A stretch of 64,000 bases of DNA from Bacteroidetes bacterium HGW-Bacteroidetes-8 (GTDB taxonomy: Bacteria; Bacteroidota; Bacteroidia; Bacteroidales; UBA932), in NCBI GenBank assembly GCA_002840895.1, contig PHCZ01000001.1, forward strand, positions 186,001-250,000, given 5' to 3'. A model generated the notes under the pieces. The model made no database searches. It had not been told where the DNA came from and was given only the letters and a program-made list of their open reading frames with translations. Positions within the stretch are counted from its first letter, which is position 1; each line of letters starts with the position of its first letter. The position numbers were made by a program, and so were the translations under genes. This document shows, in pieces, positions 56,039 through 59,828 of this stretch.

Positions 56039-56112
56039 GGCCCCGTAGCTCAACTGAATAGAGTATCTGACTACGGATCAGACGGTTACAGGTTTGAATC
56101 CTGTCGGGGTCA
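56039..56112 (+). tRNA. tRNA-Arg (anticodon ACG)
   Basis: A full cloverleaf is readable: acceptor GGCCCCG (56039-56045) pairs with CGGGGTC (56105-56111) with one G-U; D-arm GCTC/GAGT; anticodon stem TCTGA/TCAGA around loop CTACGGA with ACG at 56073-56075; T-arm ACAGG-TTTGAAT-CCTGT; discriminator A at 56112. The next bases are CTA, so CCA is not encoded here. The displaced copy at the right end of the integrated element does read ACCA. Confidence 0.96.
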
Positions 56113-56113
56113 C
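56100..56113 (+). repeat. Left attachment repeat (attL core)
   Basis: CCTGTCGGGGTCAC, covering the T-arm 3' strand and acceptor 3' strand of tRNA-Arg. Identical to 59815-59828. Confidence 0.85.
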
Positions 56114-56125
56114 TAATAAAATAGC

Positions 56126-56170
56126 AAACAACTCTGTAGTTCAATGAATTACAGAGTTGTTTTGTTTTTA
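56126..56170 (+). terminator. Rho-independent terminator after tRNA-Arg, supplied by the element
   Basis: AAACAACTCTGTA (56126-56138) pairs perfectly with TACAGAGTTGTTT (56150-56162) around an 11-base loop, followed by TGTTTTT. It can end the tRNA transcript and lies within the inserted DNA. Confidence 0.75.
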
Positions 56171-56194
56171 GGGGGAGATTAAGGGGGAGACTTT
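56171..56194 (+). repeat. GGGGGAG double repeat near the left end of the element
   Basis: GGGGGAGATT-AA-GGGGGAGACTTT: two half units in tandem. The same 24-bp block, with two changed bases in the spacer, occurs at 59678-59701 near the right end. Its form and places suit integrase arm-type binding sites. Confidence 0.7.
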
Positions 56195-56212
56195 GCCGAT
56201 AAATGATTGGAT

Positions 56213-57223
56213 TTAAGATAAAGGACGGCACTTTTTAAACGAACGAATCTTGATTCTTAGGCTTGACTTGTCTTCTAGCGGGAACACTCTTGAAATATTC
56301 ATTACTTTATCGGTAAAGTCGTTTTGGTTTGTTTCCTCATTTTTATAGTAATAAATAATAATTTCTTTACACTCCTTTTTGCAAAATATCTCCTTCAAAA
56401 GAACTCTATCGCTCAATCCACAAGAGTGTCCCATTATATGAACTCTGTACTCAGTGCCAGTAAGATTATTAATAAGATTGCTATAATTGTCTCGTTCCAG
56501 GTACATAAAAGACTTAAAATATTTTAAATACCCGTTATTGTTTTCTTGCTCGATTTGTAGATACTTTGGGTCTGATTCGTCACCGTATCCAAAAATTATA
56601 GAGTCGGGATTATTAACAGAACCGTGAATATGTATTGGCGCAATGGAGTGATCACTGAAGTAAGAATTATTTTCTAATTCACTAATATACTGGTCCAGCG
56701 TGCTAGTATAATTAAAGTTTAAAAAAATTAATTTATAGGCATATTTATCAATACTCTTCGATGTAGTTTCTAAAATATTTCCAAAGTGGTCCAAGATTGC
56801 ACCTTTTGTAATCTCCTTAGGTATATTGTTATTTATGTGATTTATATATTTTATAAACTCCTCTCTAACATCGGAAAATTCCTTGTTGAGTTTAGAAACC
56901 TGTGCTAAATCTTTTGCACTTACAAGTGAGCTGAAATAACTCCTTTCTACGCCTTCCCAGCTGTTATTAGTTCTTTCGGAAAACATTCTTTTGAAAAATG
57001 AGTTGCCATATGTTATGTTATAATCCAAAATACTGTTAATATCAAACTTACTCCAGTTATAACCTGAGCCAAAACTTAATATCTTATTTCCTGTACTTGA
57101 AAATTGATTTTTCTTCAATTGTGCAAAAGACTCCTCCAAAAGCCATAAAATAAAACTATTGGTGTCAGTTTTGAGCCCGTGGGCCAAGTCAAAGCCATTA
57201 CCTATTATAAAAAGATCGACCAT
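56213..57223 (-). CDS. AbiH-family abortive-infection protein
   Basis: The 336-residue protein has the AbiH hallmarks: N-terminal LFIIGNGFDLAHGLKTD (4-20), a central LIFLNFNYTSTLDQYI near 176, the PIHIHGSVNN motif near 200, FGYGDE, and VHIMGHSCGLSDRVLL near 272. AbiH was first described as a phage-exclusion protein in lactococci; its biochemical activity is not firmly known. Here it is the last gene of a three-gene cargo, 3 bases after a membrane coiled-coil protein. The host-interface role is inferred from family and context. Confidence 0.85.
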   Translation of the reverse strand: MVDLFIIGNGFDLAHGLKTDTNSFILWLLEESFAQLKKNQFSSTGNKILSFGSGYNWSKFDINSILDYNITYGNSFFKRMFSERTNNSWEGVERSYFSSLVSAKDLAQVSKLNKEFSDVREEFIKYINHINNNIPKEITKGAILDHFGNILETTSKSIDKYAYKLIFLNFNYTSTLDQYISELENNSYFSDHSIAPIHIHGSVNNPDSIIFGYGDESDPKYLQIEQENNNGYLKYFKSFMYLERDNYSNLINNLTGTEYRVHIMGHSCGLSDRVLLKEIFCKKECKEIIIYYYKNEETNQNDFTDKVMNISRVFPLEDKSSLRIKIRSFKKCRPLS

Positions 57224-57226
57224 AAT

Positions 57227-57859
57227 CTACTTAGAGCTACCTTGATTAGACTTCTCCACAAGATCAAAATATGCTTTCATAAGAGCTTCATATTTAACCT
57301 GTATAGCTGGGTAGTTTTTATGGGCTCTTATTTTTAAATTTGTCTCATCAATAATAACAAATGCCGAGTTAAAGGGCTTGCTTAATTTTTGGTCAGCTTG
57401 CAACATTGAAGTGGTTACTTTACTTATGGAGTACCCGACCATACTCATAACAATTGTAGTGTTTTGTATCCATTTACTATCCTCTCCTACGTTTAAAGTG
57501 CGTAATAAGCTGCCTAAAAAATAGGAAATTCCGTGTAAAATTTTTCCGGATGAAGTCGCAATTGTTCCCGCTAGATATAAAAGGTGTGCGCTTATTCTGT
57601 CGCCCTGTTCCTCCAGCTTCCCTTTTATAGTGTTTATTTCGTTAACTTTATTTCTAAGAAATTCTATATCCTTTTTTATTTCAAATGCCCTGTAAATTTG
57701 GTATCCTATTAGTAAGGTAACCGAAACGGCGATTGAGGCCGCAATTAAACCAAAATAGCCAATAGGATCAATTTGTATAGGGCTGAATTCAAAAAAGTAT
57801 AGCACAATTGAAGCTGTAGATAATATAATTGCTAAAAAGCTTAAGTAACTGTTTTTCAT
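57227..57859 (-). CDS. Two-helix membrane protein with coiled coil, AbiH partner
   Basis: I do not recognise a family for this 210-residue protein. It has two N-terminal transmembrane helices (about 5-24 and 34-56), then a charged helical stretch likely to form a coiled coil (about 60-92). A mixed region (about 93-210) follows with two weakly hydrophobic stretches and no catalytic motif. The bulk probably faces the cytoplasm. It starts 15 bases after the channel-like gene and ends 3 bases before AbiH, so the three are almost certainly expressed together. Confidence 0.7.
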   Translation of the reverse strand: MKNSYLSFLAIILSTASIVLYFFEFSPIQIDPIGYFGLIAASIAVSVTLLIGYQIYRAFEIKKDIEFLRNKVNEINTIKGKLEEQGDRISAHLLYLAGTIATSSGKILHGISYFLGSLLRTLNVGEDSKWIQNTTIVMSMVGYSISKVTTSMLQADQKLSKPFNSAFVIIDETNLKIRAHKNYPAIQVKYEALMKAYFDLVEKSNQGSSK

Positions 57860-57874
57860 AGTATAACTTGTTTA

Positions 57875-58447
57875 TTAATCATTAATAATGTCAATAGATG
57901 AGCCTAACTTAGATTTTCCAAAATCTTTAAAATTGGACAAGAGAATAATTACTATATACAAAAAAAGAAACGACTCAAGAATAGAACATAGCTTTGCCCA
58001 AAAGGAGACAGGGCGGATATCGCTTAAACCACTTCCGGAGATAAAATCAACGCTAAAACAAAAAAAGTCGAATAAGGATTGAAAAAAACCAGGTACGATG
58101 CTTCCGGTAAATGAGCCGTTATCAAGTAGGTAGATTGTATTATATATTGAAGCGAATAAGTAGGAAATTACAATAACAAATATAATAAAGTGAGTGACGA
58201 ATTGTTTGAAGTTAACTTTTTTGAATACAAAGTGGTAAGGTAGAGAGTGGAGCTCTATCGCAAGCACCGAAATTAAGAAAAGGTATATCAGGCTAAACGC
58301 CCTAAAGAAGCCCCGCGCCTCTTCGCCTTCTAGATTAGAATAGAAGTACATGGTATACTGTAAAAGGGTAAAGAAAATTGAAGTGAATACCACCCTAGTA
58401 TAGTGCTTTTTAAATGACGGCCAAGCAATATCATTATTTTTCGCCAT
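57875..58447 (-). CDS. Ion-channel-like membrane protein with altered selectivity filter
   Basis: The 190-residue protein has helices at about 17-36, 47-66, 84-107 and 150-172. Residues 129-171 align without gaps to the pore loop and inner helix of the two-TM potassium-channel family (Ion_trans_2): FSV at 131-133, DIRP at 143-146, K152-L, I156-x-E158. The filter signature TVGYGD is replaced by GSGLSD (138-143), so K+ selectivity is doubtful. It begins 13 bases after the integrase stop and leads the cargo. Channel identity is inferred from this alignment. Confidence 0.65.
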   Translation of the reverse strand: MAKNNDIAWPSFKKHYTRVVFTSIFFTLLQYTMYFYSNLEGEEARGFFRAFSLIYLFLISVLAIELHSLPYHFVFKKVNFKQFVTHFIIFVIVISYLFASIYNTIYLLDNGSFTGSIVPGFFQSLFDFFCFSVDFISGSGLSDIRPVSFWAKLCSILESFLFLYIVIILLSNFKDFGKSKLGSSIDIIND

Positions 58448-58460
58448 AAACTTAAAATGA

Positions 58461-59675
58461 TTAAGATTTAAAGAATTCGTGATTTGCTAATATCTGAGCG
58501 TTCTGCTCCTTAGGAATCTTTATATATTTCATAAAGGCTTTTTCGGTCTTATGCCCGGTTATTTTCATTATTGAAATCGGCGAGATCCCGGCGAGGTACA
58601 TATTTGTCGCTCCGGATCTCCGCGCAGTATGTGTTGTAACCAATTCCCACTTCTCTTTTGTTTCAACGTACACCCTTTTTCCCTCGGACCTAGTTACGCT
58701 AACTTTTTCATTGATCTCTGCAATCTTTGCGATTTCTTTGATTTGCTTATTTAGAGTAGCATTCGTAATGGTTGGTAGGACGTAATTATACTGTTCGAGT
58801 ATTTCCTTCACCCGGGGGTGCATCGGTATTATAACGCTATCTTTTGTTTTTTGTGGTACCTTATATATAAGGCCATTTTTAATATTGTCTCCCGTAAGAA
58901 CCGAGTAATCTGAAAACCTCATTGCGGTGTAGCATCCAACAATAAACAGGGCCTTAGTTTTTTTATAGCTCCCAGGTACAGTTGTGGTATATATTCGGTT
59001 AATCTCCTCCGGAGTCAGATAAATACTATCGTATTCCTCCTGAGACTTTTTAAAATCCTCAACGCTATCACTCACGTTATGGCCACGCTTCCTTGCGTCA
59101 TTAATCACAGCCTTTATATTTTTGATGTGAGTTGCAACGTGATTGATGCTCGGCATTCTACCTTTGCTTTTGCCTCTTTCAATTACCCTGCTTTCAATTT
59201 TTCTCTTAAATGTATCGAGGTACTTGTAATTAACATCTTCAATCTCACAATCGGGCGCGATCTGAGTTAAGGCGTTTAGCGAGGTGATATAAGATTTTAT
59301 ATTAGACTTTTGCCTATCCCTATTAATATACTCACGGAATATACTAAAAAAAGAGTTTTTAATTTCCGAGTCTGGACCTTTTACCCTAAATAATTTGTCT
59401 AAGCCATCTCGGATAAATTTTGGATTAGGTGAGTCGCAACTTAAAGACAACTCCCTTATAATAGACTCATATCGGTTAAGCTTATTATTGATTTTTTTTG
59501 CCTCTTGATATTCCCTTACCTCCCTTATACGCTGAGTCTCGGTATTCCAGTACTGCACCGGTATTTTTATAGAGGTTGAATATTTTAAATATTTCGGCTG
59601 CCCAAAATATACGTGAATATTAATTACGCTATCTTTGTCCGAAGGGCTTTTTAAGTAGAAATTAATCGTAATCAT
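58461..59675 (-). CDS. int: Tyrosine-type site-specific integrase
   Basis: The 404-residue protein is a phage-type integrase. It has an N-terminal arm-binding-like region (about 1-90), a SAM-like core-binding domain (about 105-205), and a catalytic domain with R253, K276/K278, H349-x-x-R352, H375 and the nucleophile Y384 (FMKYIKI). This layout is common in Bacteroidota integrative elements. It sits beside the right att repeat, transcribed inward, and a GGGGGAG double repeat ends 2 bases before its ATG, where bound integrase could repress it. Confidence 0.93.
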   Translation of the reverse strand: MITINFYLKSPSDKDSVINIHVYFGQPKYLKYSTSIKIPVQYWNTETQRIREVREYQEAKKINNKLNRYESIIRELSLSCDSPNPKFIRDGLDKLFRVKGPDSEIKNSFFSIFREYINRDRQKSNIKSYITSLNALTQIAPDCEIEDVNYKYLDTFKRKIESRVIERGKSKGRMPSINHVATHIKNIKAVINDARKRGHNVSDSVEDFKKSQEEYDSIYLTPEEINRIYTTTVPGSYKKTKALFIVGCYTAMRFSDYSVLTGDNIKNGLIYKVPQKTKDSVIIPMHPRVKEILEQYNYVLPTITNATLNKQIKEIAKIAEINEKVSVTRSEGKRVYVETKEKWELVTTHTARRSGATNMYLAGISPISIMKITGHKTEKAFMKYIKIPKEQNAQILANHEFFKS

Positions 59676-59677
59676 AC

Positions 59678-59701
59678 GGGGGAGATTTCGGGGGAGACTT
59701 T
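59678..59701 (+). repeat. GGGGGAG double repeat near the right end, overlapping the int 5' region
   Basis: GGGGGAGATT-TC-GGGGGAGACTTT: 22 of 24 bases match 56171-56194 in the same orientation. It lies 2 bases upstream of the integrase ATG and about 115 bases inside the right att repeat. Confidence 0.7.
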
Positions 59702-59814
59702 AAAGCAACTCTAGTTAATTGTAAAAGTAAATAAAGATTAAATAAAAATACAATAAACATCTAAGCATTAACAATAATTTGTTTAATAAATAAATAAAAA
59801 ATAAAGTACATATC

Positions 59815-59828
59815 CCTGTCGGGGTCAC
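59815..59828 (+). repeat. Right attachment repeat (attR core)
   Basis: CCTGTCGGGGTCAC, identical to the tRNA-Arg 3' end at 56100-56113. The next bases complete ACCA, preserving the CCA of the original tRNA gene. Confidence 0.85.

Follow-up and report, generated by a model that had tools for sequence, protein, structure and literature searches.

An AbiH-family gene in a compact tRNA-Arg element of a Bacteroidales genome, preceded by genes for a channel-like and a two-helix membrane protein

Whether an AbiH protein acts together with membrane proteins encoded beside it is the question raised by a small mobile element in a 64,000-nucleotide stretch of Bacteroidales DNA, referred to here as the window. 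If the parts act together, AbiH, an enzyme of unknown mechanism, would be tied to NAD chemistry and to transmembrane ion flow, and at 3.7 kb the element is small enough to be tested whole. Even without joint action, the family of the two-helix protein is of interest as an uncurated group of membrane proteins that recurs in restriction and Dnd-like operons. It poses the question of why DNA-cutting systems have a membrane partner. The explanation tentatively preferred here, with a probability of roughly 0.4, is that the element is a self-contained mobile abortive-infection cassette in which a SIR2-like effector and a membrane module would act jointly.

The 3.7-kb integrative element is bordered by exact 14-nt repeats of the 3' end of a tRNA-Arg gene (Table 1), and this core has no further plus-strand copy in the window. 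The G+C content of the element (0.343 for 56114-59814) lies below the window mean of 0.403 and is lower than that of all 603 sampled segments of the same size, overlapping ones included. Near each end lies a 24-nt repeat built of two copies of GGGGGAGA placed 12 nt apart, which probably serves as an arm-type binding site for the integrase. A terminator-like stem-loop may also terminate the minus-strand operon; the single terminator-like site found, against a mean of 1.9 in shuffled sequences, is not a count above chance. The tRNA region, together with a neighbouring gene that is presumably rplS, was matched in five relatives, three of which were read at the tRNA site. In one genome of the same genus (G695, locus L242), a histidine-kinase relative (5.5e-30) comes next to tRNA-Arg without the element in between, as is the case beyond the element in the window. 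A second genome of the genus (G615) and one of the same family (G518) carry other genes after the tRNA, with no match to the cargo or the integrase. An earlier interpretation made from the letters of the window, the sequence-only reading, had described a minimal tRNA-Arg element, and this is borne out by the 14-nt repeats and the element-free site in G695.

Table 1. Positions of the features of the element and its insertion site in the window
Feature	Position	Strand	Evidence or remark
tRNA-Arg(acg), insertion target	56039..56113	+	ARAGORN; sole tRNA of the window
attL core CCTGTCGGGGTCAC, 3' end of tRNA	56100..56113	.	Exact 14-nt repeat with 59815-59828
Stem-loop, terminator-like, 17 pairs, 3' of tRNA	56126..56162	.	
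Left arm-type repeat (probable), 24 nt, tandem GGGGGAGA	56171..56194	.	Repeat comparison
AbiH-family protein, 336 aa	56213..57223	-	PF14253, PADLOC AbiH, model, fold search, motifs
Two-helix membrane protein, 210 aa, long helical coiled-coil-like part after the helices	57227..57859	-	Uncurated family
Channel-like protein (190 aa) with three or four membrane helices and altered filter SGSGLSDI	57875..58447	-	
Tyrosine recombinase (integrase), leads the minus-strand run	58461..59675	-	PF00589 3.8e-11, PF13102 4.4e-9
Right arm-type repeat (probable), 24 nt, tandem GGGGGAGA	59678..59701	.	92% identity to left repeat
attR core CCTGTCGGGGTCAC	59815..59828	.	Exact 14-nt repeat; L242 shows the site without the element

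In transcription order the minus-strand genes run from the integrase through the channel-like and two-helix genes to abiH, with gaps of 13, 15 and 3 nt, and all four reading frames are intact. The coordinates and the 15- and 3-nt gaps of the sequence-only reading agree with the gene calls, and the tight same-strand operon that it described holds. The integrase gene, which stops 13 nt short of the channel gene, belongs to it too and brings the run to four genes. These would be expressed as a single transcript. A promoter scan brought out no convincing candidate: sigma-70-like sites are no more numerous than by chance (17 against 15.1), with one weak site before the integrase. The Bacteroidales-type promoter pattern has seven matches in the window against 2.19 expected, one of them inside abiH and none just upstream of the integrase.

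The last gene of the run encodes a true member of PF14253. The family profile, with a cut-off of 30.9 bits, matches at 101.1 bits over residues 4-290 (profile positions 1-256 of 260) and the PADLOC AbiH model matches at 7.3e-11, which confirms the family assignment made from the letters. The protein has the motifs GNGFD (residues 8-12), FNYT (with N171), IHG (with H200) and GHSCGLSD (265-272); in an alignment of 26 AbiH proteins N171 is conserved in all 26 and H200 in 25. By Pfam and PADLOC it belongs to the same family as AbiH of Lactococcus lactis and keeps the family motifs, but the L. lactis protein is the product of a single gene, whereas the present one comes last in a run of four. In their accessible text, PMC12322248 and PMC11942015 enter AbiH as one gene or system, and the former describes it as acting on some streptococcal phages with an unknown mode of action. 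An anti-phage role of the protein studied here is predicted and probable. Its sequence gave two distant matches among plasmids and none among phages.

An enzymatic function is suggested by comparison with SIR2 proteins. Compared by eye, the AbiH motifs GNGFD, FNYT, IHG and G(H/F)S...D stand in the order found in SIR2_2 proteins. The Asn of the SIR2 motif TxN[FY]D and the His of HG, which we take to be the catalytic residues, are kept; AbiH has Thr where the Asn motif has its Asp. An AlphaFold model built on the 26-protein alignment (mean pLDDT 85.7) was searched against the PDB; among the first 20 of 212 matches, 17 have SIR2 or SIR2-HerA titles and three are chains of 8yhx, an entry titled trimeric HerA. 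The best match has an E-value of 6.7e-4 and a probability of 0.99, and the TM-scores on the query in these 20 ranks are low (0.30-0.40), with an rmsd above 10 Å. The BFVD viral fold library gave no match at E ≤ 0.001. Comparison by hhalign, first with a single SIR2 protein and then with a set of four, gave probabilities of 0.6% and 0.5%, respectively, the SIR2 set being tiny, diverse and hard to align. Fold search and motif order point, although not conclusively, to membership of the SIR2 superfamily. AbiH is already given as a predicted Sir2-superfamily enzyme in the accessible part of PMC3506569 (2012), so the fold and motif result is a partial confirmation and not a discovery.

The structures ranked highest belong to SIR2-HerA (Nezha) and other SIR2 antiphage effectors. 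The element differs from SIR2-HerA in having no HerA-like ATPase, and the low TM-scores and negative profile comparison further separate the two. From its fold and motifs, the likeliest role of AbiH would be that of an NAD-dependent effector. The sequence-only reading had cast AbiH as a sensor or as a modifier of a ligand; a sensor fits these features less well than a SIR2-like effector enzyme would.

The channel-like protein scores 16.2 bits against Ion_trans_2 (PF07885) and 21.8 bits in a six-frame search, both under the cut-off of 22.5. A hydropathy script finds three helices, a fourth is seen by eye near residues 19-36, and its relatives have three or four by the same script. Matches at E ≤ 0.01 occur in 15 other genomes among 296 searched from the phylum. 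Regions were read for 11 of the 16 other matches, several of which are larger ordinary channels. Three relatives come close to the protein in length, at 173, 185 and 183 aa, and have the filters TLGYEG, TVGFGD and SIGYGD, respectively; for the last two, from L200 and L204, a phmmer search of a small set gave 9.9e-9 and 9.8e-6. The closest relative found is 30% identical. In the alignment, the protein itself lacks a TVGYGD-type selectivity filter and has GSGLSD in its place. With canonical filters in its relatives, it is thus a real relative of K+ channels with a changed filter, in support of the pore-loop membrane protein recognised earlier. It shares the filter loop and the next helix with Ion_trans_2 K+ channels but differs in having GSGLSD for TVGFGD, extra N-terminal helices and no regulatory domain.

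Searches with the channel-like protein did not lead to further copies of the operon. None of the four genes on either side of the 11 relatives was flagged as a relative of AbiH or the two-helix protein. A channel profile matched 44 others of 163 genomes of the order, mostly in larger channels by frame length, and eight weak matches in the order were discarded once the proteins had been read. Viral contigs, plasmids and phages gave nothing.

The protein between the channel and AbiH has two membrane helices by the hydropathy script, followed by a long helical part. The two helices of the earlier description therefore stand, while its coiled coil is consistent with a helical part seen in a poor model (mean pLDDT 58.4) and would lie on the cytoplasmic side. 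No Pfam family matches above its cut-off. Single-sequence searches gave nothing in 394 other genomes of the phylum, viral contigs, genome contigs, plasmids or phages, and the family was reached only by a profile built from this protein and one relative. In 393 genomes of the order this profile returned 27 rows, comprising the protein itself, 14 accepted members (L032_11 and L116-L128) and 12 weak or coil-only matches that were dropped (L095-L106). Two of the dropped rows, in regions L130 and L132, may be distant members, as a broader profile afterwards gave them values of 1.4e-9 and 1.4e-7. When this broader profile was run on 92 small membrane proteins, members included, scores slid from 1e-74 to about 1e-3 and the rest began at 0.09. 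The closest relative found is 32% identical. In this family the second helix ends in VTLLIGYQIYN..E, and full-length members add a C-terminal element like NY..IK.KYE.

The neighbours of the family suggest what it does. Defence systems lie on the same strand within 30 nt in six of the 14 members from the order. The adjoining gene encodes a type I specificity subunit in L116 and L121, a DUF3800 protein beside type I R and M subunits in L119, a helicase next to a type IIG enzyme in L120 and a type III methyltransferase in L127; L122 has a DndH-like ATPase with a PbeC/DndD-like protein and two SIR2-like proteins. For the other eight, neighbours were scanned in part (L117, L118, L128, L032) or assessed by eye. 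Six loci came from genome contigs; two of these are duplicates, and among the four that are new L169, L170 and L172 are type IIG operons. Viral contigs added five distinct loci, two of which (L136, L138) hold integrase relatives; the gene after the two-helix relative in L138 has no Pfam match. With L171 and L119, L174 and L120, and L133 and L134 each counted once, at least nine of 23 distinct loci are restriction or Dnd-like operons, an uncontrolled raw share. The frequent presence of the family inside multi-gene defence operons suggests a need for partners, and judged by this company the two-helix protein is likely an accessory. That the family has these other partners counts against a recurring three-gene system.

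Two of these arrangements deserve description. A five-gene operon recurs in Bacteroidales (L169:302-8191, L170:4365-11827, L174:4611-11826), with a type IIG (MmeI-type) restriction-methyltransferase, a variable gene that is PDC-S32-like in L169, the two-helix protein, a helicase and a MUG113/T5orf172-domain protein. In L122:5060-11864, two SIR2-like proteins, the two-helix relative, a split DndH/HerA-like ATPase and the PbeC/DndD-like protein form one run.

The trio itself is a single case within the searched material. Failure of the three-gene order to recur had been named beforehand as the result that would count against a system, and the trio was seen at the window locus alone among 393 genomes of the order and 30 viral AbiH loci. 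AbiH is present in 42 of these genomes, including that of the window. In none of the other 41 does an Ion_trans_2 match (E ≤ 0.1) lie near AbiH; every such match lies on a different contig or is separated from AbiH by at least 109 kb, as judged by eye in a comparison that broken assemblies and strongly diverged channels would escape. Beyond the window, the AbiH loci read were a sample of 78, made up of 48 genomic and 30 viral ones. The 48 genomic regions hold 50 of 55 AbiH matches; a further match is that of the window itself, and the remaining four, all short, were left aside. None of the 78 has an operonic two-helix relative. One, L032:7174-11340 in genome G636, has a two-helix relative that forms a gene of its own, 287 nt beyond an AbiH copy broken by a stop codon, with a KAP-family NTPase gene nearby. 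In the open-access literature, as far as its accessible text goes and with subscription journals mostly outside this scope, no system joining AbiH to a channel-like protein was found, in agreement with the sequence-only reading.

These results bear on a possible, if somewhat doubtful, alternative in which the genes are independent and merely stacked. AbiH would act alone, and the two-helix and channel-like proteins would be separate defence or exclusion genes sharing an element and a promoter. The lack of recurrence favours this explanation, as does the fact that members of the two-helix family occur elsewhere in different operons or on their own, at certain loci beside integrase genes or genes that look repressor-like by eye. 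The treatment of AbiH as one gene or system in the two sources cited above points the same way. So does the finding that 67 of 76 AbiH genes lack a small membrane protein encoded within 100 nt. Such neighbours are not significantly enriched, being found within 100 nt of nine of 76 AbiH genes and 15 of 245 background genes (p = 0.13), and within 30 nt of five of 76 and 10 of 245 (p = 0.36), based on simple reading-frame gene calls and with the near-identical L155 and L156 both counted. Conversely, spacings of 3 and 15 nt, a minimal element without further cargo and a two-helix family often found inside multi-gene defence operons argue against mere stacking. As the trio did not turn up again in the genomes searched, it is plausibly a variant of the known defence gene AbiH. 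Joint action of the three proteins is likewise plausible, yet conservation lends it no support.

Under the preferred explanation, a mobile cassette with a SIR2-like effector and a membrane module, AbiH would consume NAD+ or transfer ADP-ribose upon infection, leading to arrest of the cell. The two-helix protein would sit in the membrane as an accessory and use its long helices to tether or gate a partner, and its relatives may do so with restriction and Dnd-like enzymes. Its own partner in the membrane would be the channel-like protein, either as a trigger that reports disturbance of the membrane by phage or as a leak opened as a second blow. A broader version is unlikely, namely that AbiH, as a SIR2-like enzyme, and a K+-channel-derived pore form one mobile abortive-infection unit through the two-helix coupler, with NAD chemistry tied to membrane potential, and that the two-helix family is a general membrane adaptor of restriction (types I, IIG and III), Dnd-like and AbiH systems in Bacteroidota.

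Under the mechanism offered by the sequence-only reading, AbiH detects infection or supplies a modified ligand, the signal passes through the coiled-coil protein and the channel depolarises the membrane. This mechanism, which would resemble RexAB with the channel as killer, is improbable. The channel filter is without the K+ signature, so that the pore is possibly non-selective, as this mechanism would have it. The element also resembles RexAB of lambda and gp30/gp31 of Sbash in that a cytoplasmic and a multi-helix membrane protein are encoded on a mobile element, with abortive infection proposed. In the accessible part of PMC6426596, four membrane helices are predicted for lambda RexB as well as for Sbash gp31, and both are put forward as channels that their cytoplasmic partner switches on. 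However, the K+-channel-type pore loop and the additional two-helix protein have no counterpart in RexAB, and RexA and RexB families are absent from the Pfam matches of the cargo proteins listed up to E 10, where the filtering steps of HMMER remove most matches with E above about 0.1. As stated in the accessible part of PMC12894663, a relative of RexAB in P. putida failed to depolarise the cells. In addition, AbiH looks like an effector, and the channel-like protein has little space for a ligand-binding or sensor part, so that a ligand-driven channel would have to be coupled through the two-helix protein or by direct contact.

The two-helix protein shares with SLATT effectors two N-terminal membrane helices, a helical part and a defence context. 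In favour of the same mechanism, SLATT two-helix domains are, in the accessible text of PMC9503650, predicted membrane effectors controlled by ADP-ribose derivatives. An identity of the two-helix protein as SLATT is unsupported, with no match above cut-off (SLATT_5 at E 7.5, PADLOC RTasSLATT at E 0.53). Among 11 tested members of its family, each of these models matched three, with best values of 0.15 and 0.0021, respectively. That the element holds no working defence unit at all, its cargo being a chance and perhaps decaying assembly or having another role such as element maintenance, is very improbable given four intact reading frames and the kept motif residues of AbiH, even though the trio occurs once, the channel-like and two-helix proteins are divergent from their closest relatives and the channel filter is changed.

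Some members of the two-helix family occur in a different setting. In L123, L126, L128 and L138:3075-5830 they lie beside genes that appear repressor-like by eye (of the S24 type in L128), and in L138 an integrase adjoins as well. A neighbourhood of repressor and integrase genes is the usual place of superinfection-exclusion genes.

Other small membrane proteins are also encoded beside abiH. Those in L165:8001-9425 and L158:8001-9432 follow AbiH by 3-19 nt and have four hydrophobic stretches in which no channel filter was seen. The two-helix proteins beside AbiH in L152/L161, L155/L156, L063, L041 and L062 were considered as relatives and fall outside the family described here, at ranks 35-42 of the 92 proteins scored. 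In L152:3969-9248, which is the same as L161, the genes for a type I restriction R subunit, a two-helix membrane protein unrelated to the present family and AbiH are tightly spaced, with gaps of 1 and 8 nt. In L155:4564-6554 and L156, another two-helix protein follows AbiH by 14 nt and by eye resembles the one adjacent to AbiH in L063.
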